Positions 2,583-41,825 of a DNA stretch of 64,000 nucleotides are shown here, piece after piece; within the stretch, counting starts at the first letter, position 1, and each line of letters begins with the position of its first letter. Location of the stretch: assembly GCF_030845995.1 (NCBI RefSeq), contig NZ_CP132719.1, positions 2,790,001 to 2,854,000 on the forward strand, given 5' to 3'. Made by a program: the position numbers and the translations under genes. The notes beneath the pieces were generated by a model. It was given only the letters and a program-made list of their open reading frames with translations, did not search any database and was not told the DNA's origin. Source of the DNA: Geothrix sp. 21YS21S-4. GTDB taxonomy: Bacteria > Acidobacteriota > Holophagae > Holophagales > Holophagaceae.

Positions 2583-2596
2583 GAAAGAGCAAAGAT

Positions 2597-2677
2597 CACC
2601 ACCAAGACACGAAGGCACCAAGAACGGCGCGGGAATCGTCCCCTGCTTTTCTTGGTGCCCTTGGTGTCTTGGTGGTG
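2597..2677. repeat. intergenic inverted repeat, CACCAAG family, copy 1
   Basis: Left arm 2597-2622 (starts CACCACCAAGACACGAAGG) and right arm 2651-2677 are near-perfect reverse complements, separated by 28 bases. It lies between the convergent epimerase and HutX ends, and the right arm is followed by a T run at 2683-2689, so it could act as a terminator in the plus direction. Related copies occur near 25915, 56600, 57463 and 63775. Confidence 0.75.
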
Positions 2678-2688
2678 AAGAATTTTTT

Positions 2689-3213
2689 TCAGTTCCGTTT
2701 CTCGAACCGCCGCCGCAGGTTCAGGTAGCGGACCTTCACGTCGGGCAGGAGGGCGCGGTCGGCGCTACGGCCGACGTAGACGCCGAACATGGGCTGGCCT
2801 TCGCGGGTGTAGAACTGCACGCTGTGGCTCTCCTTCCCGAAGTGGGGCTTGGAGACGAACCAGATCGCGCCCAGGCGCTCGATCAGCAGGTGTCCGCCCA
2901 GGGGGTTGCCGGGCTCGTGGAGGTTGAACATCCCGTGGCCCTTCTGCCCGCGCGGGAGGGGGCCCGCCACTTCCACCACCGCGCCGGGCGTCACCGCCAG
3001 GAAGGTGGCCTTCTGCCAGCCGCGGAGATCCTCCCAGATCTCCTCGAAGGCCTCGACGGGCGCGGGCGTGGCCATCCCCGCGGGAAGGAGCGGGAGCACG
3101 TCCCCTTCGGGAAGGCCCAGCTGGGCGGCGAGGGCAGAGAGCATCACGCCTGGCTGCTGGTCGAGCGTGGCCTGGATCTGTTCGGTGAGCGCGGCGGCTT
3201 CGAGGGTGGTCAT
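2689..3213 (-). CDS. hutX: HutX/ChuX-like heme carrier module (possible separate gene)
   Basis: An ATG at 3213 preceded by GAGG gives a 174-residue product close to the usual HutX length. Family features are GHGMFNLHEPGNPLGGHL, an IWFVSKPHFGKESHSVQF stretch and MFGVYVGRSADRALLP, which match the HutX/ChuX/HugX family of cytosolic heme-binding proteins that hand heme to degradation enzymes. The frame is open upstream into the ECF ATPase, so it may be made as a fusion, separately, or both. The hutW partner lies in the same locus, which supports a heme function. HutX identity is strong; separate translation is uncertain. Confidence 0.7.
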   Translation of the reverse strand: MTTLEAAALTEQIQATLDQQPGVMLSALAAQLGLPEGDVLPLLPAGMATPAPVEAFEEIWEDLRGWQKATFLAVTPGAVVEVAGPLPRGQKGHGMFNLHEPGNPLGGHLLIERLGAIWFVSKPHFGKESHSVQFYTREGQPMFGVYVGRSADRALLPDVKVRYLNLRRRFEKRN

Positions 3214-4659
3214 GGGACCTCGGGAAGAAGAAGGGTGAAGGAGGGCGCCCAGATCCGCCCGGCACGTGCACACGCGCTCGAGCAGCTCCAGGTCGTGGCT
3301 GATGAGGAGGACGCACGCGCCCTCGCGGGCGGCGGCCTCCAGGTGGTCGGCGATCATGCCCATGTCCCCGCCGTCGAGCCCGCTGGTGGGCTCGTCGAGG
3401 ATGAGCAGCTCCGGCCGGCGCAGCAGGGACATGGCGAGGACCAGGCGCTGCTTCTCCCCCCCGGACAGGGACTGGGGATGGCGATGAGCGAGGGCGGCCA
3501 ATCGAAAGTCGGTCAGGAGGCCCTCCACCCGATCGCGGCACGCCTCATCCGCAGGATCCGCGCAGGCCAGGAGTTCCTCCCGCACGGTGCGCATGTGGAG
3601 CTGGTGGTCGGTGTTCTGGAGAACGAGGCCCACGCGCCCGGTCAGGTTCCGGACCTCAGCTCCGCCGATCCGCAGCGTGCCGCGCTTCAGGGGCAACAGC
3701 CCGCCCAGGAGCCGCGCGAGGGTGGTCTTCCCCGCCCCGTTGGGCCCGACAAGGCCCACCACCTGGCCCTTGGGCAGATCCAGGGACAGGCCGTCGAACA
3801 GCGGCGGGTGGCCGGGATAGCCGAAGGCGAGGTCCCGCAGCTCCAGCCAGGCCGGAAGGACCGAGGCGTCCGGCAGGCGGTTCCGGAGGTCCTCCACCCG
3901 GGCCTTGCGCAGCCCGCGGCCGGCGCGGAGGGCCTCCTCGTCCAGGCACTCGAAGGGAACGTCCAGAATCAGGCGCCCGTCCGCCATCACCAGGACGCGG
4001 TCCACCAGGTCCCGCAGCCAATAGAGGCGGTGGTCCACAATGAACAGGGTGAGGCCCGCGGCCTTGAGGTCCGCCAGGAGCCCGGCCAGGTCGCGCGTGG
4101 CCTCGGGATCGAGGTTGGCGCTGGGCTCGTCCAGGAGCAGGACGGCGGGCTCCAGGGACAGCAGGCCTGCGAGCGCCACCCGCTGCTTCTGCCCCTCGGA
4201 CAGTTCGTGGACGCTGCGCTCCAGCAGGTGCTGGATGCCCAGGCGCCGGGCGGCCTCCACGATGCGGCGGCGCACCAGGCCCGGTTCCGCGCCCCGCCAC
4301 TCGTGGGCGAAGGCCAGTTCGTCGGCCACGTTGAGCGCGAGGAACTGGTGCTCGGGGTCCTGGAACAGGGTGCCCACCTGGCGGGCCAGATCGCCCACGG
4401 AAATGGTCTGCGTATCGCGCCCGACGGCCGCCACGCGGCCCTCCAGCCGTCCCCGGTAGTGGTGGGGCGCCAGGCCGTTCAGCAGGCGGATCAGGGTGGA
4501 CTTCCCGCAGCCCGACGGCCCGGTGCAAAGTACCGCCTCCCCCGGGCGGATCCCAAAATCGAGCTCCTTCAGGGCGGGGCCGGCGGCGAAGGGATAGGCG
4601 TAGCCCACGCCTTCGACGTGGAGGATGGGGGCCGCGGCCAGGGTCGCTGCGTCACGCAT
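2689..4659 (-). CDS. ECF-type double ATP-binding protein, open in frame into a HutX-like domain
   Basis: One uninterrupted frame of 656 residues. Residues 1 to about 470 hold two ABC ATPase modules like EcfA-EcfA': Walker A GPSGCGKST (47-55), signature LSEGQKQR and Walker B VLLLDEP, then a second set GPNGAGKTT, LSGGEKQR and LLILDEP. The last 174 residues are HutX-like. The start at 4659 follows GTGAGG and lies two bases after the EcfT stop, so translation is coupled. The second ATPase ends abruptly after the His-switch SHDLELLERV. A one-base shift there would give a normal-looking tail (AGRIWAP...) stopping at a TGA that overlaps the HutX ATG. It is therefore either a true fusion or two genes hidden by a frameshift. 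Role: energising ECF import, probably of heme. Confidence 0.75.
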   Translation of the reverse strand: MRDAATLAAAPILHVEGVGYAYPFAAGPALKELDFGIRPGEAVLCTGPSGCGKSTLIRLLNGLAPHHYRGRLEGRVAAVGRDTQTISVGDLARQVGTLFQDPEHQFLALNVADELAFAHEWRGAEPGLVRRRIVEAARRLGIQHLLERSVHELSEGQKQRVALAGLLSLEPAVLLLDEPSANLDPEATRDLAGLLADLKAAGLTLFIVDHRLYWLRDLVDRVLVMADGRLILDVPFECLDEEALRAGRGLRKARVEDLRNRLPDASVLPAWLELRDLAFGYPGHPPLFDGLSLDLPKGQVVGLVGPNGAGKTTLARLLGGLLPLKRGTLRIGGAEVRNLTGRVGLVLQNTDHQLHMRTVREELLACADPADEACRDRVEGLLTDFRLAALAHRHPQSLSGGEKQRLVLAMSLLRRPELLILDEPTSGLDGGDMGMIADHLEAAAREGACVLLISHDLELLERVCTCRADLGALLHPSSSRGPMTTLEAAALTEQIQATLDQQPGVMLSALAAQLGLPEGDVLPLLPAGMATPAPVEAFEEIWEDLRGWQKATFLAVTPGAVVEVAGPLPRGQKGHGMFNLHEPGNPLGGHLLIERLGAIWFVSKPHFGKESHSVQFYTREGQPMFGVYVGRSADRALLPDVKVRYLNLRRRFEKRN

Positions 4660-4661
4660 GG

Positions 4662-5435
4662 TCAGTGCCTCACGACGGGCTGGTGGGGCGTGCGCGCATT
4701 CACCACGAAGGTGGCGGCCAGCAGGCCCAGGGAGAGGCCGAGGGCGGCGACGTCCAGCCGCCGGAAGCGCCCCTGGCGGTAGGGCGACAGGACGCTGCGC
4801 GCGTGGACGCCCTTCAGCTCCGCGGCGACGCCCAACTCGTCCGCCGTCCGCAGCGCCCGGAAGAGCATCGGGACGAAGAACACGCGCACGCTCCGCCACG
4901 GCCGCCGGAGGAGCGCGGCGGGGTTCAGCGGCAGGCCGCGGATCCGGGCCGCTTCCGCCACCTGGCGGAGGTCCTCCACCAGCGAGGGGATGAACCGCAC
5001 CATGATCGCGGCGGGGATGTAGATCCAGTACGGCAGCCGCAGCGACTTGAGGGCCGTGAGTATGCCCTGGATCCGCGAGGTCAGCGCCAGGGCCAGCAGG
5101 GCGTGGAGCAGGATCAGGATCCGCAGGAAGGGGACGCCGAGGCTGGCCCCGTCGCTCCGGCCCAGCTGCGGACTCACCTTGCGCAGGAGCATCGTGAAGC
5201 CCAGCGCCAGCAGCCACACAGCAAGCACCCCCGCGTGGGCCACGAGGATGATCCGCCAGCGGCGCGTCAGCGCCAGGTAGGTGCCGGTGGCCGCCGCCAG
5301 CAGCCCGAGCGCGGCGGGGCTGCCGAGGGCGATGACGGCCACGGAGCAGGCGAGGCTGAGCAGCATCTTGGTCCGCACGTCCAGGCGGTGCAGGGGCGTG
5401 AGCGGCCCGTCGCTAGACGTGAACGATGCCCGCAT
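4662..5435 (-). CDS. ECF transporter transmembrane (T) component, EcfT/CbiQ family
   Basis: This 257-residue membrane protein has about five to six hydrophobic segments. Two short coupling-helix motifs, EAARIRGLP (about 165-173) and ELKGVHARS (about 210-218), are the Ala-Arg-Gly-type motifs by which EcfT contacts the two ATPases. It starts inside the end of the S-component gene (23-base overlap) and ends two bases before the ATPase start, so S, T and A components form one translational unit. It should sit in the inner membrane and pair with the neighbouring S component. CbiQ of cobalt transporters is related, but no CbiM/CbiN is present. Confidence 0.85.
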   Translation of the reverse strand: MRASFTSSDGPLTPLHRLDVRTKMLLSLACSVAVIALGSPAALGLLAAATGTYLALTRRWRIILVAHAGVLAVWLLALGFTMLLRKVSPQLGRSDGASLGVPFLRILILLHALLALALTSRIQGILTALKSLRLPYWIYIPAAIMVRFIPSLVEDLRQVAEAARIRGLPLNPAALLRRPWRSVRVFFVPMLFRALRTADELGVAAELKGVHARSVLSPYRQGRFRRLDVAALGLSLGLLAATFVVNARTPHQPVVRH

Positions 5436-5967
5436 GGCGCAGCTCCTTCAGAAAGCCCAGCCCCGCCACCAGCCCCAGGAGGGAGCCGAGGTAGCCGATG
5501 GCGATGATCGCGGCGCTCATCACCAGGACCTGCGGCTGCTCCCTCACCACGGCCCAGGACACGGCCAGGGAGAGCGATTTCGACACCAGGTCGTAGAGCG
5601 CGACGCCGAGCAGGATGACCCAGGTGGAGCCCAGGCGGCGGAGGGCCAGCATCGCCAGTTCCGCCACCGCGCCCGCGACGAGGGAGGCGGGAATCAGCAT
5701 CAGGCCGGCGCCCAGCAGCATCACGGACAGGAGCGCGCTGACCACCAGGAACACCATCAGGGCGCCCGGCTTGCGGACCTTGCACAGCAGGATGAACAGG
5801 AGGCTGGTGAACACGAGGTTCTTGAGGATCAGGGTGAGGGGGTTCATCCCTCCGCCCAGGAGGGCCACCACCAGGCTCGACACCTTGACCACGGCGGCGA
5901 AGGTGCCGATCACCACGAGTTCGCGGACTTCCCAGTAGGCGGGCTTGGGCTGAGCGAGAGTTTCCAC
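5413..5967 (-). CDS. ECF transporter substrate-binding (S) component, MptD-like
   Basis: This small integral membrane protein of 184 residues has about six hydrophobic helices and an N-terminal charged segment YWEVRELVVIGTFAAVVK resembling MptD-family ECF S components. The S component determines the substrate of the complex. Because it is flanked by a TonB receptor, HutW and HutX, heme or a heme derivative is the most economical substrate. That is inference from context; cobalamin or another metal chelate cannot be excluded. It begins seven bases after the receptor stop. Confidence 0.7.
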   Translation of the reverse strand: METLAQPKPAYWEVRELVVIGTFAAVVKVSSLVVALLGGGMNPLTLILKNLVFTSLLFILLCKVRKPGALMVFLVVSALLSVMLLGAGLMLIPASLVAGAVAELAMLALRRLGSTWVILLGVALYDLVSKSLSLAVSWAVVREQPQVLVMSAAIIAIGYLGSLLGLVAGLGFLKELRHAGIVHV

Positions 5968-5974
5968 GGCGGCC

Positions 5975-8017
5975 TCAGAACGTGGAGCGGAGGCTGACGG
6001 ACACGCTGCGCCCCGCCATCAGCACGGTCTCGAAGGCCGTGCGGTAGCTGCGGTCCAGCAGGTTCTGGAGGTTGACGGCCACCTGGTGCTGGCCGTGGGC
6101 GCCGAAGTGGAGGCCCGTGGACAGGTTCAGGATGGTCCACCCGGGCACCGCCTCCACCGTGCCGTTGGAGGACGCCAGGTCCGCCCGGTCGGCGAAGCGC
6201 AGGAAGGCGTCGGCGTGGAATCCCAAGCCCGTCCGCGCCGCGGATTCGTAGCGGAGGCCCGCCTGGCCCAGGAACGACGGCGAGCCCGTCTTCCAGGTGG
6301 TGAAGCCCGTGGATTCGAACCGGCGGCGAAGCCACGTGAAGCTGGTGTAGGGGCTCAGGTGGGGCGTGGCCTGGAGCGTGGCGGCCGCTTCCAGCCCCTG
6401 GCTGGTGGCCCGGTCCACGTTCCGGAACTGGAGCGCATTGGGATAGGTGGGCGTGGGCGACAGCAGGGTGGTGATGTAGTCGCGGTTCTCGCTGCGGAAC
6501 AGCGCCACGTCCACGGCGGCGCGGTCCGTGTTGGTGCGCCAGCCCAGCTCCACGCTGCGGGAGGTCTCGGGCTTCAGGTCCGGGTTCCCGAAGGTGGGGC
6601 TGGAGCTGCCGTGGACCGTGCCCATGTAGAGCTGCTGGAGGGTGGCGAAGCGGTAGCCCTGGGAGACGTTCAGCCGCAGGGTGGACGGCGCCGCCACCTT
6701 CCACGCCACGCCCAGGGAGCCCACCAGGTTCTGGTCCCGGTTCGAGGCCACCTTGAGGGTGGGATCCGTCGTCTTCTCCAGCTCGGTCTTCACCCAGGTC
6801 TGGCGGAGGCCGCCGGTGAAGGTGAGGCCGTTCACGGGCTGCCACTCGTCCTGGACGAACAGGGCGGTGACGGTGGCTTCCGCCTCGTCGCGGTACTTCG
6901 ACAGCGAGAACGCCGGCATCATCGGGAGCATCCGAGAGCGGCGGGTCTCGTCGGCCCCCAGCCGGTCGCGGCTCCCCTCGAAGCCCGCGATCAGGTAGTG
7001 GCCGCCGGGCAGCGCCCAGTCCGACTGGAGGTGGAGGCCGTCGGAATCCAGGTCGTTCTGGGTGCGGTTGCGGGTCTGGACGGTCATGCCGGGCCCGGCC
7101 TGGATGTCCATGTCCATGAAGAAGTCCTTGTAGGTCGTCTGGTGGTAGACGTCCGCCGACAGCTTCGCGAGGGCGCCCGCGGCAGGGCGCCAGATCGTCC
7201 CCAGGGACGTCTTCTTCCGGGACCATTCGGGCAGGTCCTGGTGGAAGTAGGGAATCGCGGCGGAGATCACGCCGTCCGGCGTGAACACCCGCAGGTCGCT
7301 GATGTGGGTCTCGGCGCTGGCGAAGAGGGTCAGCCGCTCCCAGGCCTGTTCCACGTAGAGGCGCCCGCCCTTCTCCTGGAAGGAGGTGTCCGCGGCCACG
7401 CCGTCGGGCGTGCGGCGGTCGCCCTGGTTGGAGCGGTAGCCGGACACGTTGTAGCTGAAGCCCTGGATGCGGCCCGAGGCCATCAGGTGGCCCTTCCAGC
7501 CGTCGGTGGCGCTGTCGTAGGTGGTCCCGGCCTCCAGCTCCAGGGGCACCTGGGCGCCCTTGCGGGTGATGATGTTCACCACCCCGGCGATGGCCTCGGA
7601 TCCGTACAGCACCGAAGCGGGCCCCTTGATCACCTCGATCCGCTCCACGATGGAGGGATCCACCAGGAACACGGCGCCGGACATGGACTTCTGCTCGGAG
7701 ACCCGCTGCCCGTCGATCAGCAGCAGGACCCGGGCGGCGGATTCGCCGCGGAGGCCGATGCGCTTCTGGCCGGGAACGGCGCCGTCCTCCACCTGCACGC
7801 CCGGGATGTCGCGCAGCAGGTCGGCGATGGACGTGGTCCCCTTCCGGAGGATCTCCTCCCTCTCGACGACGCCCACGGAATGGGGAACTTCCTGAAGGCT
7901 GCGCTCCACCTTGGTGGCGGTGACGCGGACTTCCTTGAGCTGGACCTCGTCCGGGGCGTCGGCGAAAGCCGCGGAGGCGGAGCCGAGGGCGGCGAGGAAA
8001 AGGGCGATGCGGTTCAT
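5975..8017 (-). CDS. TonB-dependent outer membrane receptor, probably for heme
   Basis: This 680-residue protein has a signal peptide (MNRIALFLAALGSASAAFA), a plug domain starting near VRVTATKVERSL with the usual GLRGESAARVLLLIDG and VERIEVIKGPASVLYGSEAIAGVVNI segments, and a 22-strand-type barrel ending in an aromatic residue (SVSLRSTF). A NPDLKPETS element typical of barrel loops lies near residue 530. The start overlaps the hutW stop by four bases (ATGA), and GGAG sits just upstream. Such receptors import iron chelates using TonB energy, which must be encoded elsewhere. Heme is inferred from neighbours rather than from diagnostic residues; cobalamin is the alternative. Confidence 0.85.
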   Translation of the reverse strand: MNRIALFLAALGSASAAFADAPDEVQLKEVRVTATKVERSLQEVPHSVGVVEREEILRKGTTSIADLLRDIPGVQVEDGAVPGQKRIGLRGESAARVLLLIDGQRVSEQKSMSGAVFLVDPSIVERIEVIKGPASVLYGSEAIAGVVNIITRKGAQVPLELEAGTTYDSATDGWKGHLMASGRIQGFSYNVSGYRSNQGDRRTPDGVAADTSFQEKGGRLYVEQAWERLTLFASAETHISDLRVFTPDGVISAAIPYFHQDLPEWSRKKTSLGTIWRPAAGALAKLSADVYHQTTYKDFFMDMDIQAGPGMTVQTRNRTQNDLDSDGLHLQSDWALPGGHYLIAGFEGSRDRLGADETRRSRMLPMMPAFSLSKYRDEAEATVTALFVQDEWQPVNGLTFTGGLRQTWVKTELEKTTDPTLKVASNRDQNLVGSLGVAWKVAAPSTLRLNVSQGYRFATLQQLYMGTVHGSSSPTFGNPDLKPETSRSVELGWRTNTDRAAVDVALFRSENRDYITTLLSPTPTYPNALQFRNVDRATSQGLEAAATLQATPHLSPYTSFTWLRRRFESTGFTTWKTGSPSFLGQAGLRYESAARTGLGFHADAFLRFADRADLASSNGTVEAVPGWTILNLSTGLHFGAHGQHQVAVNLQNLLDRSYRTAFETVLMAGRSVSVSLRSTF

Positions 8018-9423
8018 GAGGCGAACTCCTTGGGAGGAACGGAAACGGGAGAGGGGACGAGCGCCCGGCAGGCGTCCACCAGCCCCTGGGCGAGGTTCAC
8101 TTGCCAGAACTCGCCCGCGCGGGTGAGGCGGGCCCAGCCGTCGCGGAGCTCCAGCAGGCCGCAGCGGGTCCACTGGTCGAGGAGGGGCTGGACGCGGGCG
8201 GCCACGGGCTCGCCCGCCCAGGCGTCCAGGCGGGCGACCTCCAGGCGGCCCAGGTCGCACCCGTCCGCGATGCGCGCCGCCAGGACGCGGAGGGGCGAGG
8301 GCCGGGTCATCATGGCCACCGGGGAGCGGCCCGCCTCCACCCGCTCCAGGTAGCGGCCGAATTCGCGGGTGTGCATGATCCCGTGGCCGTGGAGGTTGCC
8401 GCCCGCGCCGCAGCCGTAGGGCAGAATCGTCGCGCCGCCCTTCACGAGGCGGTTGTAGAGGCTCCGCTCGCGGGACGTGGCGCGCCAGTGGCAGACGGAG
8501 AGCCGGCTCCAGGCCATGGCCTCCATGGCGTCCACCCCGGCGCTGAACATCTCGGCCTGCTCGGGTAGCGAGGCCGCGGGCTCGCAGCGGCCCTCGGCGA
8601 TCATCCGGGCCAGGGTGGTGTGGGGCAGGACGTTCAGCTGGTAGAGGTCCACGCCGTCCAGGGGCAGGCGCTCCAGGGTCCGCACGTCCTCCACCCAGGA
8701 GGCCACGGTCTGGCCGGGGAACCCGTAGACGAGGTCGATCACCACCGACGCCTGATCCGGCGCCGCCAGCCGGGCGAGGGTCTCCAGAACGGTTTCGCGG
8801 TCGTCCAGGCGGCCCACCAGTCGGCGGCCGCGGGTGTCGAAGCTCTGGACGCCGATGGAGAAACGGTTCGCGCCGCCCTCCAACGCCGCCCCGAGGAGGG
8901 CTTCGTTCATCCCGTGAACGCGGCCCTCCAGGGTGATCTCGCAGTCGTTGGCCAGGGGCAGCTCCGCGCGGATGGCCCGCAGCAGGCGGAGAAGGTCCGG
9001 CGGTTCCAGGTCGGTGGGCGTCCCGCCGCCCAGGTAGACGGCGTGGACGGGACCGGACGCCACGGCGGGCGTTCCGGCCGTGGCCCGCAGCTCCCGGATG
9101 AGGGCGTCCGTGTAGAGGGCGCTGTCCCCGCCCTGGGTGAACCGGGAGAAGAAGCCGCAGTAGGTGCAGCGAGTCGAGCAGAAGGGGATGTGGAAATAGG
9201 CCGCGGTGGGGCCGGTGCGGGGCGTCTGGAGGAGTTCCGCCAGGTGGGCCTCCGCGGCGTCTGGCGCCACGGGTCCGGCCCCCAGTCCGGCGTGGATACC
9301 GGTCTTCCGGTCGAAGGCGAACCGGAGCGGATCGGCGCCCTCCCGGGCGAAGAAGGCGGAGGGCCCGTCCGCGGGAGCGGGCGAAGGCCGCCCAGGAGGC
9401 ATGAGGGCCCCTTGGCTGGTCAT
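8014..9423 (-). CDS. hutW: anaerobic heme-degrading radical SAM enzyme, HutW/ChuW family
   Basis: This HemN-like radical SAM protein of 469 residues carries the cluster motif CSTRCTYC (Cys82, 86, 89) in YFHIPFCSTRCTYCGFF and the SAM-binding YLGGGTPTDL. Features of the HutW/ChuW branch rather than HemN or HemW are the long N-terminus and the C-terminal GCGAGGNLHGHG segment. ChuW opens the heme ring without oxygen, making a linear tetrapyrrole and releasing iron. I chose the ATG at 9423 because GAGGA lies nine bases upstream; an ATG at 9432 would leave almost no spacer. It is the first gene of the transport operon and sits behind a Fur-like box. A true HemW lies at 50790, so this copy is specialised. 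Confidence 0.8.
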   Translation of the reverse strand: MTSQGALMPPGRPSPAPADGPSAFFAREGADPLRFAFDRKTGIHAGLGAGPVAPDAAEAHLAELLQTPRTGPTAAYFHIPFCSTRCTYCGFFSRFTQGGDSALYTDALIRELRATAGTPAVASGPVHAVYLGGGTPTDLEPPDLLRLLRAIRAELPLANDCEITLEGRVHGMNEALLGAALEGGANRFSIGVQSFDTRGRRLVGRLDDRETVLETLARLAAPDQASVVIDLVYGFPGQTVASWVEDVRTLERLPLDGVDLYQLNVLPHTTLARMIAEGRCEPAASLPEQAEMFSAGVDAMEAMAWSRLSVCHWRATSRERSLYNRLVKGGATILPYGCGAGGNLHGHGIMHTREFGRYLERVEAGRSPVAMMTRPSPLRVLAARIADGCDLGRLEVARLDAWAGEPVAARVQPLLDQWTRCGLLELRDGWARLTRAGEFWQVNLAQGLVDACRALVPSPVSVPPKEFAS

Positions 9424-9495
9424 GGTGGACATTCCTCGGTGCGAAGGTCTCCCGGCCGGGGCGGGAAGCCGCGTCCGGAAAAGCGCCTCAAAATT

Positions 9496-9514
9496 AAGAT
9501 CGCGTCTCAGTATC
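9496..9514 (-). promoter_or_regulatory. Fur-box-like operator upstream of hutW
   Basis: On the minus strand the 19-mer GATACTGAGACGCGATCTT matches the classical Fur box at 10 of 19 positions by my hand count. It shares the exact 13-mer GTCTCAGTATCTA (plus strand 9504-9516) with the inverse sequence upstream of the AraC gene. A TTGAAT lies just upstream on the minus strand, so a bound regulator would cover the promoter. Confidence 0.45.
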
Positions 9515-9516
9515 TA

Positions 9517-10398
9517 TTATTCAAACCCGCCCCGCTGCTCCGGGCCGGAGGAATGCTGCTCCAAACGGGAGGGGAGGCAGCCGAAGCGCTCCCGGAAGGC
9601 CCGCGCGAAGTGCCCGCAGTTCTCCCAACCCACGGCCCAGGCGACTTCGCTGACCTGCATCCCGGCGTTCAGCAGGACCTGGGCCCGCCGGAGGCGCTGC
9701 TCCTTCACGAAGCCGTGGACCGTGAAGCCGTAGGTGCGCTTGAACAGGGCCTTCAGCTTGCACTCGTTCAGCCCGCTCTGGCCGGCGAGCTGGGGAATGG
9801 TGGGCGGATCCGTCATCCGCTCCAGAAGGATGCGCCGCGCCTGGGCGACTCGGGCCGCATCGTCCCCGCCCGGTGCGGGATCCTGCTGGTACTGGAAGAC
9901 GTGGGCCAGCAGGTCGAGGCTCCGCCCGAACAGCGCCACCCGCCGGAGTTCCGGATCCAGCCGGCAGGCCTGGAGCAGGTCCAGCACCGGAAAGATGGGC
10001 GCGGCGCAGGCCACGGTCCGGCTGCGGTGGGAGAACAGCGGGCAGAAGCCGGGAAGTCCCGCCGGCACCTGGAACCACACCAGCTCGCCCTCCGCCGGCA
10101 GCCCCAGGGTGAAGGCCTGGTCCTGGCCGCACCAGAACCAGAGCTGCGAGTGGATGGGCCGGGGCGGCTCGCCCGGCAGCGCCACGGAGAAGCGGCCCTC
10201 CCAGGGCACCAGGAGCAGGCCGGGATTGGGATTGGCGAGGGCCAGCCCGGAAGGGCCGACTTCCTTCAGCCGCGCCCGGCCCAGCCGCAGGTCCAGGAGG
10301 AGCGTCTCCACGGACGCCTCCCGTCCCCGCAGCAGGGGAGCCAGGGCTCCCGCGGAGGACGACCGCTCCGGGGAACGGGCCTCAAGGAGCGCCGGCAC
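9517..10398 (-). CDS. AraC-family regulator, PchR-like
   Basis: This 293-residue protein has a C-terminal double helix-turn-helix of the AraC type. The segment LNECKLKALFKRTYGFTVHG, followed by VKEQRLRRAQVLL, is characteristic of the PchR/YbtA group, regulators that sense siderophores or heme-related ligands. The N-terminal about 190 residues form the ligand-binding half. It is upstream of and co-oriented with the hutW-receptor-ECF genes, and copies of one 13-mer flank it on both sides. It likely activates the locus when ligand is present and is itself iron-controlled. The ligand is unknown. Confidence 0.85.
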   Translation of the reverse strand: MPALLEARSPERSSSAGALAPLLRGREASVETLLLDLRLGRARLKEVGPSGLALANPNPGLLLVPWEGRFSVALPGEPPRPIHSQLWFWCGQDQAFTLGLPAEGELVWFQVPAGLPGFCPLFSHRSRTVACAAPIFPVLDLLQACRLDPELRRVALFGRSLDLLAHVFQYQQDPAPGGDDAARVAQARRILLERMTDPPTIPQLAGQSGLNECKLKALFKRTYGFTVHGFVKEQRLRRAQVLLNAGMQVSEVAWAVGWENCGHFARAFRERFGCLPSRLEQHSSGPEQRGGFE

Positions 10399-10457
10399 CG
10401 GTCACCGGCCCGCGAACGAACGGCCGGCGGCCAGAGGGTGAGGGCGGAGGATTTCTA

Positions 10458-10476
10458 GATACTGAGACACAGTCTC
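10458..10476 (-). promoter_or_regulatory. Fur-box-like operator upstream of the AraC gene
   Basis: The plus-strand 19-mer GATACTGAGACACAGTCTC matches the Fur consensus at 13 of 19 positions by my count and contains the perfect inverted repeat GAGAC-ACA-GTCTC (10464-10476). It lies about 60 bases before the AraC start, in promoter range. The same half site recurs before hutW and bfd. Confidence 0.5.
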
Positions 10477-10540
10477 GATAGTACGCATCCCTAAAACGGA
10501 TGCAAGACTCCAAAACCTCCGCCGCCGGGCGGGGCCCTTC

Positions 10541-16608: not shown

Positions 16609-17184
16609 CTACTGCGCCCAGGGGCGGTACTCGCCCCGCTTGCAGGCTTCCATGACTTCGACGAGCTTCGCCTCGTCCACGAACTCGTCGTAGACGTCGT
16701 GGTTCACCTGGACGCAGGGACCGCTGCCGCAGCCCGCCAGGCACTCCGCTTCCTCTACGCTCCACATCCCGTCGGGACTCGGGCCGTGACCCGGCTGGAC
16801 GCCGGCCTTCTCGCAGACCTTCTCCAGGAGCTGGGCCGCGCCGCGGAGGGCGCAGCTGATGTTGGTGCAGACCTGGAAGTGGAAGCGCCCCACGGGCGCC
16901 TTCTGATACATCGTGTAGAAGGTGGCGACGCCGAACACGTGGCTCTCGGGGATGCCGATGGCCCGCGCGACGGCCTTCATCGCGGCGAGGCTGACGAACC
17001 CGAATTCCCGCTGGGCGATGTGCAGGGCGGGCAGCGTGGCCGCCAGCTTGTCGGGAAACTTGGCCGCGATGGCCTGGATCTCGGCGACGGCCTCCGGGCT
17101 GAATTCCTTGCGCTCGGATTCGGGCAACCGCTGGCCGGGGGCCAGGGGCTCGTTCGACATGTCGGGAGGCAGAGGGTGATTCAT
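16609..17184 (-). CDS. nuoE: NADH-quinone oxidoreductase subunit E
   Basis: This 191-residue thioredoxin-like subunit carries the [2Fe-2S] cluster N1a, with Cys in CTNISC and CLAGCGSGPC, and the preceding helical domain with ALHIAQREFGFVS. I start at the ATG at 17184; a GTG lies two codons upstream and ATG codon 11 downstream. A TAAACT -10 box about 22 bases upstream (17207-17212) gives nuoEF its own promoter, separate from nuoABCD. With NuoF it forms the NADH dehydrogenase head. Confidence 0.93.
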   Translation of the reverse strand: MNHPLPPDMSNEPLAPGQRLPESERKEFSPEAVAEIQAIAAKFPDKLAATLPALHIAQREFGFVSLAAMKAVARAIGIPESHVFGVATFYTMYQKAPVGRFHFQVCTNISCALRGAAQLLEKVCEKAGVQPGHGPSPDGMWSVEEAECLAGCGSGPCVQVNHDVYDEFVDEAKLVEVMEACKRGEYRPWAQ

Positions 17185-17206
17185 GGGCACGCTCGCAGGT
17201 GGGGCC

Positions 17207-17212
17207 AGTTTA
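17207..17212 (-). promoter_or_regulatory. -10 box of nuoEF
   Basis: On the minus strand GCTAAACTGG contains TAAACT and matches the gCTAnnCTGG pattern seen before many genes here. It sits 12 bases after the yceI terminator and 22 bases before the nuoE ATG. No clear -35 is visible. Confidence 0.45.
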
Positions 17213-17223
17213 GCCCAAAGGGA

Positions 17224-17258
17224 ATGGGGGGCACCCGGCCAAAGCGGGTGCCCCCCAT
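17224..17258 (-). terminator. strong hairpin after yceI
   Basis: A perfect 14-base stem (ATGGGGGGCACCCG with its complement) around a seven-base loop lies 20 bases after the yceI stop and upstream of nuoE. It probably insulates nuoEF from yceI transcription; no long T run follows. Confidence 0.6.
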
Positions 17259-17278
17259 CACGAAACGCGGGATGCGGT

Positions 17279-17869
17279 TTACTTCTGCGCGGCGCCGGCC
17301 TTGCCCGCCTCGACGTTCAGGCTCACGGAAACCGTCTCGCCGATGACGCCGGGATAGGTCTTGATGCCGTATTCGTTCCGGTTGAGGGTGAGGGCGCCGT
17401 CCACGAAGCCCGCCACCACGGAGCCCGGCTGCATCCCAGGCTGGGTGCCGGCGTTGCTGATGGGGAAGGTGATCCGCTTGGTCACGCCGTGCAGCGTGAA
17501 GTCCCCGGTGACCTCCAGCTTGCCCTTGCTCACTTCCTTCACGGCGGTGCTCTTGAACGTGATGATGGGGAACTTCTCCACGTCGAAGAAATCGGGGGAC
17601 TTCAGGTGCTTGTCCCGGGCCTCGTTGTCGGTGGTGATGCTGGCGGCGTCGATGGACACCTCCACGCTGGACTTGGCGAGGTCGGCGGTGTCCACCTTGA
17701 TCGTTCCCTGGAACTTGGTGAAGCGGCCGCTGGTCTTGGCCAGAAGGTGACCGACCTTGAAGCTCACTTCGCTGTGCACCGGATCGATCTTGTAGACGTC
17801 CTCGGCGGCGAAGGCCGGCAGGGCGGCCAGCGAGAGGAGCGCGAGAAGGGCGCGGAAGGGGTGGCGCAT
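17279..17869 (-). CDS. YceI-family periplasmic protein
   Basis: This 196-residue protein has a signal peptide ending in PAFAAE and the YceI lipocalin-like barrel beginning YKIDPVHSEVSFKVGHL, with SGRFTKFQGTI and the closing NRNEYGI. Family members bind isoprenoid quinone-like or amphiphilic molecules in the periplasm; the ligand here is unknown. ATG at 17869 follows GGAGGTTCC. It is divergent from a MarR regulator and probably controlled by it. Its location between the two nuo blocks is notable given the quinone link of the family. Confidence 0.92.
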   Translation of the reverse strand: MRHPFRALLALLSLAALPAFAAEDVYKIDPVHSEVSFKVGHLLAKTSGRFTKFQGTIKVDTADLAKSSVEVSIDAASITTDNEARDKHLKSPDFFDVEKFPIITFKSTAVKEVSKGKLEVTGDFTLHGVTKRITFPISNAGTQPGMQPGSVVAGFVDGALTLNRNEYGIKTYPGVIGETVSVSLNVEAGKAGAAQK

Positions 17870-25914: not shown

Positions 25915-25941
25915 CACCACCAAGACGCCAAGGGCGCCAAG
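25915..25941. repeat. CACCAAG-family repeat arm, copy 2
   Basis: This 27-base arm (begins CACCACCAAGACGCCAAGG) matches the copy-1 arm apart from A-to-G changes. The expected complementary arm is not intact; it would fall in the area of the 71-base duplication. It lies between the convergent SPOR and NFACT genes. Confidence 0.65.
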
Positions 25942-25964
25942 AAAAGCAAAAAACTCCTTTGCCT

Positions 25965-40951: not shown

Positions 40952-41428
40952 CTAGGAGAGGCCGCCCGCCGCCCGCTGCACGAAGTTCTGGAGCCCCATC
41001 CGGTCGATGAGGTCGAGCTGCGTCTCCAGCCAGTCGACGTGCTCCTCTTCGCTTTCGAGGATGTCCTGGCAGAGGTCGCGGGTCACGAAATCGCGGATCC
41101 CCTCGGCGTGGACGATGGCTTCGCGCAGGTCCTGCATGGCCTCCATCTCCAGCGCCAGATCGCCCTCCAGCACTTCCTTGGGGTTCTGGCCGATGCGCAG
41201 CCGATTCAGCTCCTGCAGGTTGGGCAGGCCCTCCAGGAACAGGATCCGCTCCACCAGCTTGTCGGCATGCTTCATCTCGTCGATGGACTCGCGGTACTCG
41301 TGCTCTCCCATCTCCTTCAGGCCCCAGTTGCGGCACATGCGGGCATGGAGGAAGTACTGGCTGATGGCCGTGAGCTCGTTGCGAAGGATCCGGTTGAGGT
41401 GCTGGATGGCGGTCGCGTCGCCTTGCAT
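40952..41428 (-). CDS. bfr: bacterioferritin
   Basis: This 158-residue ferritin-like protein has the di-iron ligands (Glu18, Glu51, His54 and later Glu residues in [11 protein letters not shown]) and Met52 in DEMKHADKL, the heme ligand at the dimer interface. It stores iron as a 24-mer. GGAGG precedes the ATG. bfd, 62 bases upstream on the same strand, encodes the ferredoxin that releases the iron, so the two form a small operon. Confidence 0.95.
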
Positions 41429-41490
41429 GGGGCCTCCGGGGGGAAAGGGCCCCCACGGTAGCGAACCTGCCGCCCGCTCTACAACCTATT

Positions 41491-41775
41491 TCAACTGGCC
41501 TTAGCGATTCCGGCGCTTCCCCAGGAAGGTCGGCACCGGCCTCCGCAACCCCACGGCGTCGTTGCCGGTCCGGCGGCGGCGGGTTCGGGCATCAGACGCA
41601 CGGGCTCCCCCGCGCGTACGGCCAGGACGGCCTCCTCCAGCGACGCCACGCAGCGGAAGCAGTCGGGCCGCGCGGCCAGGATCTCGAAGACCGCCTCGGC
41701 CGAGTCCGCGCCGCGCTCCCGCACGGCCCAGTGGACCTGGTCCTCCGTGATGGCGCTGCAGATGCACAGGAACAT
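41491..41775 (-). CDS. bfd: bacterioferritin-associated ferredoxin-like protein
   Basis: This 94-residue protein begins with the Bfd [2Fe-2S] domain: Cys4, Cys6, Cys39 and Cys42 (CICSAIT ... CFRC), the expected C-x-C and C-x2-C pattern. Bfd reduces bacterioferritin heme to mobilise iron. The C-terminal about 30 residues (after LAVRAGEPVRLMP), with CGGRC, extend beyond the usual 64. The promoter has a Fur-like box, as expected for a gene needed in iron starvation. Confidence 0.85.
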   Translation of the reverse strand: MFLCICSAITEDQVHWAVRERGADSAEAVFEILAARPDCFRCVASLEEAVLAVRAGEPVRLMPEPAAAGPATTPWGCGGRCRPSWGSAGIAKAS

Positions 41776-41792: not shown

Positions 41793-41825
41793 AGATTACA
41801 ACAATAGATACGAAGTCTCAATATC
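41793..41825 (-). promoter_or_regulatory. bfd promoter with Fur-box-like operator
   Basis: On the minus strand TTGAGA (41816-41821) and TAATCT (41793-41798) are 17 bases apart, a good sigma-70 pair. The 19-mer at 41807-41825, plus strand GATACGAAGTCTCAATATC, matches the Fur box at 13 of 19 positions by hand count (read on the minus strand) and covers the -35. It shares GTCTCARTATC with the sites near 9504 and 10458. Confidence 0.55.

Follow-up and report, generated by a model that had tools for sequence, protein, structure and literature searches.

Genes and features of the locus

A 64,000 nucleotide stretch of the Geothrix sp. 21YS21S-4 chromosome (NZ_CP132719.1, positions 2,790,001 to 2,854,000; referred to as the window) harbors a cluster of heme acquisition genes, in which the anaerobic heme-degrading enzyme HutW and a TonB-dependent receptor are combined with an importer of the energy-coupling factor (ECF) type. 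Six genes on the minus strand, between positions 2689 and 10398, encode in this order an AraC-family regulator, HutW, the receptor, the ECF components EcfS and EcfT, and EcfA-EcfA'-HutX as an open reading frame (ORF) of 656 codons. Comparative sequence evidence indicates that this ECF module very probably imports heme. Domain searches and coordinates agreed with the preliminary description of the locus, which had placed all of these components on one strand with overlapping or nearly touching ends: hutW and the receptor gene overlap by 4 bp, a gap of 7 bp separates the receptor gene from that of the S component, the S and T genes overlap by 23 bp, and 2 bp lie between the T gene and the gene of the ATPase pair.

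The first gene of the cluster (9517..10398) encodes a transcriptional regulator of 293 aa (PF12833 HTH_18, 69.6 bits). It had been described as AraC/PchR-like; its place in the AraC family was confirmed, whereas nothing past the DNA-binding domain supported the likeness to PchR, and no specific equivalog was obtained at cut-off in the NCBIfam comparison. HutW/ChuW (8014..9432; 472 aa) is a radical S-adenosylmethionine (SAM) anaerobic heme-degrading methyltransferase, which scored 519.7 bits against TIGR04107 (cut-off 400) and in which the radical SAM cysteines CxxxCxxC are intact (CSTRCTYC). The TonB-dependent outer-membrane receptor (5975..8017; 680 aa) comprises plug and barrel and had its best NCBIfam match in TIGR01785 TonB-hemin (228.2 bits). 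It is followed by the S component EcfS (5413..5967; 184 aa, GTG start; PF09605 Trep_Strep (MptD), 32.2 bits, cut-off 28.7) and the transmembrane coupling component EcfT (4662..5435; 257 aa; PF02361 CbiQ, 77.8 bits). In the last ORF, residues 1-482 (3214..4659) form the tandem ATPase EcfA-EcfA', with two ABC_tran stretches and with Walker A, signature and Walker B motifs each present twice, and residues 483-656 (2689..3213) form a HutX/ChuX cytoplasmic heme-carrier domain (PF06228 ChuX_HutX, 84.4 bits). All ORFs of the cluster were assigned and none encodes a periplasmic substrate-binding protein; neither HmuT nor FecCD is present at the locus. With S, T and a double ATPase in the locus, the earlier statement that an ECF module stands in the place of an importer with a periplasmic binding protein was borne out.

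The AlphaFold2 model of EcfS (predicted local distance difference test, pLDDT, 86.9) consists of six helices, and its single significant fold match in the PDB was 5edl, an ECF S component (probability 1.00, template modeling scores 0.61/0.57); no solved structure related to EcfS by sequence was found. In an alignment of fifteen S proteins, the others being 38-56% identical to EcfS of the window, GGGMNP, an RE pair, Tyr159 and ELxHAG are common, and the corresponding motifs of EcfS read GGGMNP, RE and ELRHAG. S components usually have both ends in the cytoplasm. In the model, GGGMNP (loop 1), G86-P93 (loop 3) and RE (loop 5) are predicted to face the periplasm or substrate side and ELxHAG to lie at the cytoplasmic end, a placement that makes Met41 and Arg142 candidate heme contacts. 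EcfS lies above the Pfam cut-off for the Trep_Strep/MptD family of putative ECF S components (PF09605) and shares the S-component fold, but the heme-linked S proteins stand apart from other Trep_Strep proteins as a tight subfamily marked by GG(G)MNP and ELRHA(G/S). The same genomes encode further, more distant S proteins, which reached only 21-27 bits with the subfamily profile and from which GGMNP was missing in the alignment. When the profile was compared with 399 sampled Bacilli genomes, among which Staphylococcus lugdunensis is not known to be, one weak and no strong match was obtained. A divergent S component with GGMNP (82-88 bits to EcfS in phmmer) was seen beside T, AA' and a divergent HutW at four loci; the main type occurs in these deltaproteobacterial genomes as well, and the divergent loci possibly represent a second subtype.

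Upstream of the AraC gene, the palindrome GATACTGAGACACAGTCTCGATA (10458..10480) reads as the iron (Fur-type) box of the genome, and a degenerate copy with 3 mismatches is located directly upstream of hutW (9492..9514, minus strand). A genome-wide search with this pattern, allowing up to 3 mismatches, yielded 11 matches compared to 0 for the reversed control; they correspond to 9 sites, as two of the sites were each matched once per strand. Others of these sites precede a TonB gene, the gene of a TonB-dependent siderophore-type receptor, genes for Bfd and bacterioferritin, a HemS-domain gene with a ferritin gene, and genes for a porin and an imelysin. Within the window alone the 15-bp core of the box had 2 matches with 0.97 expected, which is not significant; significance was obtained only for the longer pattern genome-wide. 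The shared box upstream of iron genes looks like a Fur regulon, in which Fur would bind these sites. The Bfd and bacterioferritin genes are located in the window itself (40955-41775), preceded by a copy of the box at 41803-41825. The HemS/ChuX-domain gene, followed by the ferritin gene and with an iron box upstream, lies elsewhere on the chromosome (about 895505-897309) and represents a second, probably native heme-handling locus.

At the 3' end of the cluster, before a convergent neighbor gene, an imperfect inverted repeat with 20-nt arms that are 95% complementary was detected (2596..2678). One further copy of its arm, TTCTTGGTGCCCTTGGTGTCTTGGTGGTGA, is found in the window (25917-25943), and the repeat is possibly a dispersed palindromic element.

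Recurrence beside hutW and origin of the cluster

A scan of GTDB genomes for HutW returned 80 loci. ECF genes of the type described here were found beside hutW in Sutterella, Duodenibacillus, Parasutterella, Aphodousia, Desulfovibrio, Desulfoluna, Adiutrix and other deltaproteobacterial genomes, most commonly in the order hutW-receptor-S-T-AA'-HutX. The cluster was also present in Geobacter, and Sutterellaceae, Desulfovibrionales and other anaerobes thus carry it. Importers were counted at the 29 HutW loci that had a visible importer or enough flanking sequence: 14 were of the ECF type, 7 of the FecCD type, none had both and 8 had neither. ECF and FecCD therefore exclude each other at these loci. 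Six HutW loci of deltaproteobacterial genomes had no ECF and no FecCD genes within ~9 kb.

A survey seeded with HutW is biased, and to avoid this the profile of the S subfamily was run against 199 Desulfovibrionales genomes. A strong match was obtained in 17 genomes (18 loci), well separated from the weak ones (21-27 bits). T and AA' were encoded at all 18 loci, each of which had HutX and/or HutW besides; HutX was present at 17, HutW at 16 and an HmuF-like flavodoxin at 16 of them. The profile was also positive in 8 of 375 genomes sampled more widely by phylum, and at four further loci from this sample HutW was always located beside the ECF genes, with the flavodoxin at three. HmuF of Fusobacterium binds heme and reduces anaerobilin (PMC10404700), so the HmuF-like flavodoxin in ECF clusters again points to heme.

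Two side observations concern the surroundings of these genes. In ECF clusters the flavodoxin gene often has a pyridoxamine-oxidase-like (HutZ/HugZ-like) gene behind it (five loci), and the hut-ECF cluster of Duodenibacillus massiliensis is flanked by two HEARO RNAs (locus positions 7334-7573 and 17108-17347), suggesting a mobile element adjoining it.

The preliminary description had proposed that the neighborhood be sought across Acidobacteriota and had counted a lack of conservation in relatives against the system. Such conservation was not found: neither an S component at the strength of the window protein nor HutW was present in 92 other genomes of the class, and 395 other genomes sampled across the phylum likewise had no HutW. 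Nine congeneric genomes were examined. In 8 of them the transporter-epimerase genes that border the cluster on one side adjoin the CBS protein-carboxyltransferase genes that border it on the opposite side, with no cluster in between, and the cluster is thus an acquired insertion. In the HutW tree, HutW of the window grouped with that of Geobacter UBA6802 (SH-aLRT, an approximate likelihood ratio test, 100) inside an ECF-linked, mostly Desulfovibrionales clade. Since horizontal acquisition accounts for the absence from Acidobacteriota relatives, and unrelated carrier lineages do conserve the neighborhood, Acidobacteriota were the wrong place for the conservation check. These comparisons indicate that the cluster is horizontally acquired and mobile among unrelated anaerobes; at 56-58% identity they do not point to a true donor. 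Composition was rejected as a sign of transfer, as the GC content of the cluster (0.69-0.73) showed no clear difference from its flanks, and carriage on plasmids was rejected as well, as no homolog of EcfS was found in 72,556 plasmids.

The ATPase-HutX fusion and the substrate of the ECF module

The presence of a HutX domain had been noted before, its in-frame fusion to the ATPase pair had not. Among solved chains the domain matched HutX of V. cholerae (5exv, 98.6 bits) and ChuX (2ovi, 62.8 bits), and its identity to HutX of Geobacter UBA6802, which is a separate protein, is 55%. No stop intervenes between EcfA' and HutX, so that a ribosome completing EcfAA' must continue into HutX, which is not a stand-alone soluble protein here. 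In Geobacter sp. UBA6802, the closest relative, the ATPase end is common up to HDLELLERVCTCRxxL, aligned in frame; past this motif it has a short tail and then a stop, and hutX starts in another frame. No other ATPase-HutX fusion was found among the other loci carrying both genes, where hutX is separate and usually overlapping or adjacent. The fusion therefore looks real, as far as can be read from the sequence, and unique to this genome within the set examined.

Alternatively, HutX might be made separately from an internal ATG, and the fused frame be an accident of annotation or sequencing without function. The separate, often overlapping hutX of all other loci with both genes would fit this explanation, as would the junction, where an internal ATG at 3213 is closely preceded by GAGG and overlapped by a TGA in another frame, but the lack of a stop between the domains and the in-frame alignment of the AA' tail with that of Geobacter argue against it. 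We regard a functionless frame as a real, if lesser, possibility, which would be compatible with heme import. Even with a genuine fusion, free HutX could be produced from the internal ATG as well.

Heme as the substrate, which the preliminary description had put forward, was strongly supported on four counts: the neighborhood is conserved, ECF and the classical importer exclude each other, the iron-box-like site is shared with iron genes, and the genome has a separate system for cobalamin. The only FecCD permease of the genome is encoded beside a BtuB-like TonB receptor behind a cobalamin riboswitch (chromosome about 2675886-2680099); the organism thus has its own locus for B12 uptake and no spare classical heme permease. 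The hut-ECF region itself gave no riboswitch match. The receptor of the cluster had the heme receptor PhuR as its closest solved chain (109 bits) and was closer to heme receptors than to BtuB, both in NCBIfam (228 vs 146 bits) and among solved chains (109 vs 81 bits). In heme receptors a heme-ligating His sits between the FRAP and NPNL boxes, and the receptor carries GTVHG, with such an intervening His, between FRAP- and NPNL-like boxes. At this column 11 of 27 receptors have His and nearly all others Met-Gly; both His and Met are capable of ligating heme.

Several points weigh against heme import as proposed here. Heme is assigned to the S component by deduction, and the receptor stays under the TIGR01785 cut-off of 316.85. 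As 8 of the 29 HutW loci had neither importer within ~9 kb, hutW need not be linked to an importer. An HmuF-like anaerobilin reductase was found neither in the window cluster nor, with one Geobacter query (a weak negative), in the genome. Finally, a single-base sequencing error (indel) at the ATPase-HutX junction is possible.

Uptake of a different tetrapyrrole or iron-porphyrin (coproporphyrin, coproheme or a demetallated porphyrin) in place of protoheme is improbable: the neighborhood indicates a tetrapyrrole and cannot tell tetrapyrroles apart, but protoheme is what HutX and HutW are known to handle (PMC12670364; PMC10404700). Still less probable is an import of cobalamin (or a corrinoid or cobalt) by a module only incidentally placed beside hutW, and this was rejected because the genome has a separate riboswitch-controlled locus with a BtuB-like receptor and FecCD. 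In favor of cobalamin, both TonB receptors and ECF modules with B12 or cobalt as substrate are known, and EcfT is CbiQ-like (TIGR02454, 40.6 bits, below cut-off), but the cluster has no cobalamin riboswitch, its receptor is closer to those for heme than to BtuB, and S, T and AA' travel with HutW/HutX in unrelated lineages.

Proposed uptake route and relation to known heme importers

For an ECF module importing heme, the following route is proposed. Under iron shortage the operon would be switched on via the Fur-type box and the local AraC regulator. The TonB-dependent receptor would carry heme through the outer membrane, and EcfS would bind it in a periplasm-facing pocket without a periplasmic binding protein, after which EcfT and the EcfA-EcfA' ATPases would drive toppling of EcfS and release. 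In V. cholerae, HutX delivers heme to HutW anaerobically (PMC12670364). Here the HutX domain, attached covalently to the ATPase pair, would catch heme at the cytoplasmic mouth and pass it to HutW, which would open the ring without oxygen and free the iron.

SiaFGH of group A Streptococcus is reportedly a heme ECF transporter. Heme transport by an ECF system was shown for LhaSTA of Staphylococcus lugdunensis, of which LhaS binds heme as the S component (PMC7299338). The module described here resembles both in being an ECF S-T-A module, probably for heme as iron source, apparently iron-regulated and without a substrate-binding lipoprotein, but LhaSTA and SiaFGH belong to Gram-positives and have no outer membrane or TonB receptor and no linkage to HutW/HutX. 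Classical hut/chu/hmu loci (Vibrio hutBCD-hutWXZ; Fusobacterium hmu; PMC10404700) are similar in that a TonB receptor, HutW/HmuW, HutX, ExbB-ExbD-TonB and the flavodoxin HmuF accompany the importer. They differ in the importer itself, which consists of a periplasmic protein, a FecCD permease and HmuV, whereas EcfS-EcfT-EcfAA' with no linked FecCD is found here.

No description of a TonB-ECF-HutW/HutX combination in Gram-negatives was found among the papers listed from a collection of 5.39 million open-access articles (subscription papers and preprints lay outside the search), which is in line with the earlier suggestion of a less-described system, and the operon appears undescribed so far. New are the TonB-ECF-HutW/HutX version of Gram-negatives, the S subfamily that belongs to it (GGMNP...ELRHAG) and, seen in this genome alone, the fusion of the ATPase pair to HutX. 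Tentatively, and with a little less than even confidence, we propose a new class of Gram-negative heme importer, in which a TonB receptor is combined with a distinct heme-binding S subfamily without a periplasmic binding protein and which has spread horizontally among anaerobes; in the window, HutX would be a covalent part of the ATPase and heme would reach the carrier without ever being free in the cytoplasm.

Heme uptake of Gram-negatives is taught as a receptor, a periplasmic protein and a FecCD-type ATP-binding cassette importer, of which the inner-membrane step would here be replaced by an ECF transporter. This replacement spans unrelated gut and sediment anaerobes (Sutterella, Desulfovibrio, Geobacter), while heme ECF transport was previously shown only in Gram-positives, and one subfamily of S components, so far 'unknown', would thereby receive a substrate. 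With the ATPase-HutX fusion, it could be approached how imported heme is handed on without becoming free in the cytoplasm, and mutagenesis and structure determination could be aimed directly at the GGMNP loop and the fused carrier.

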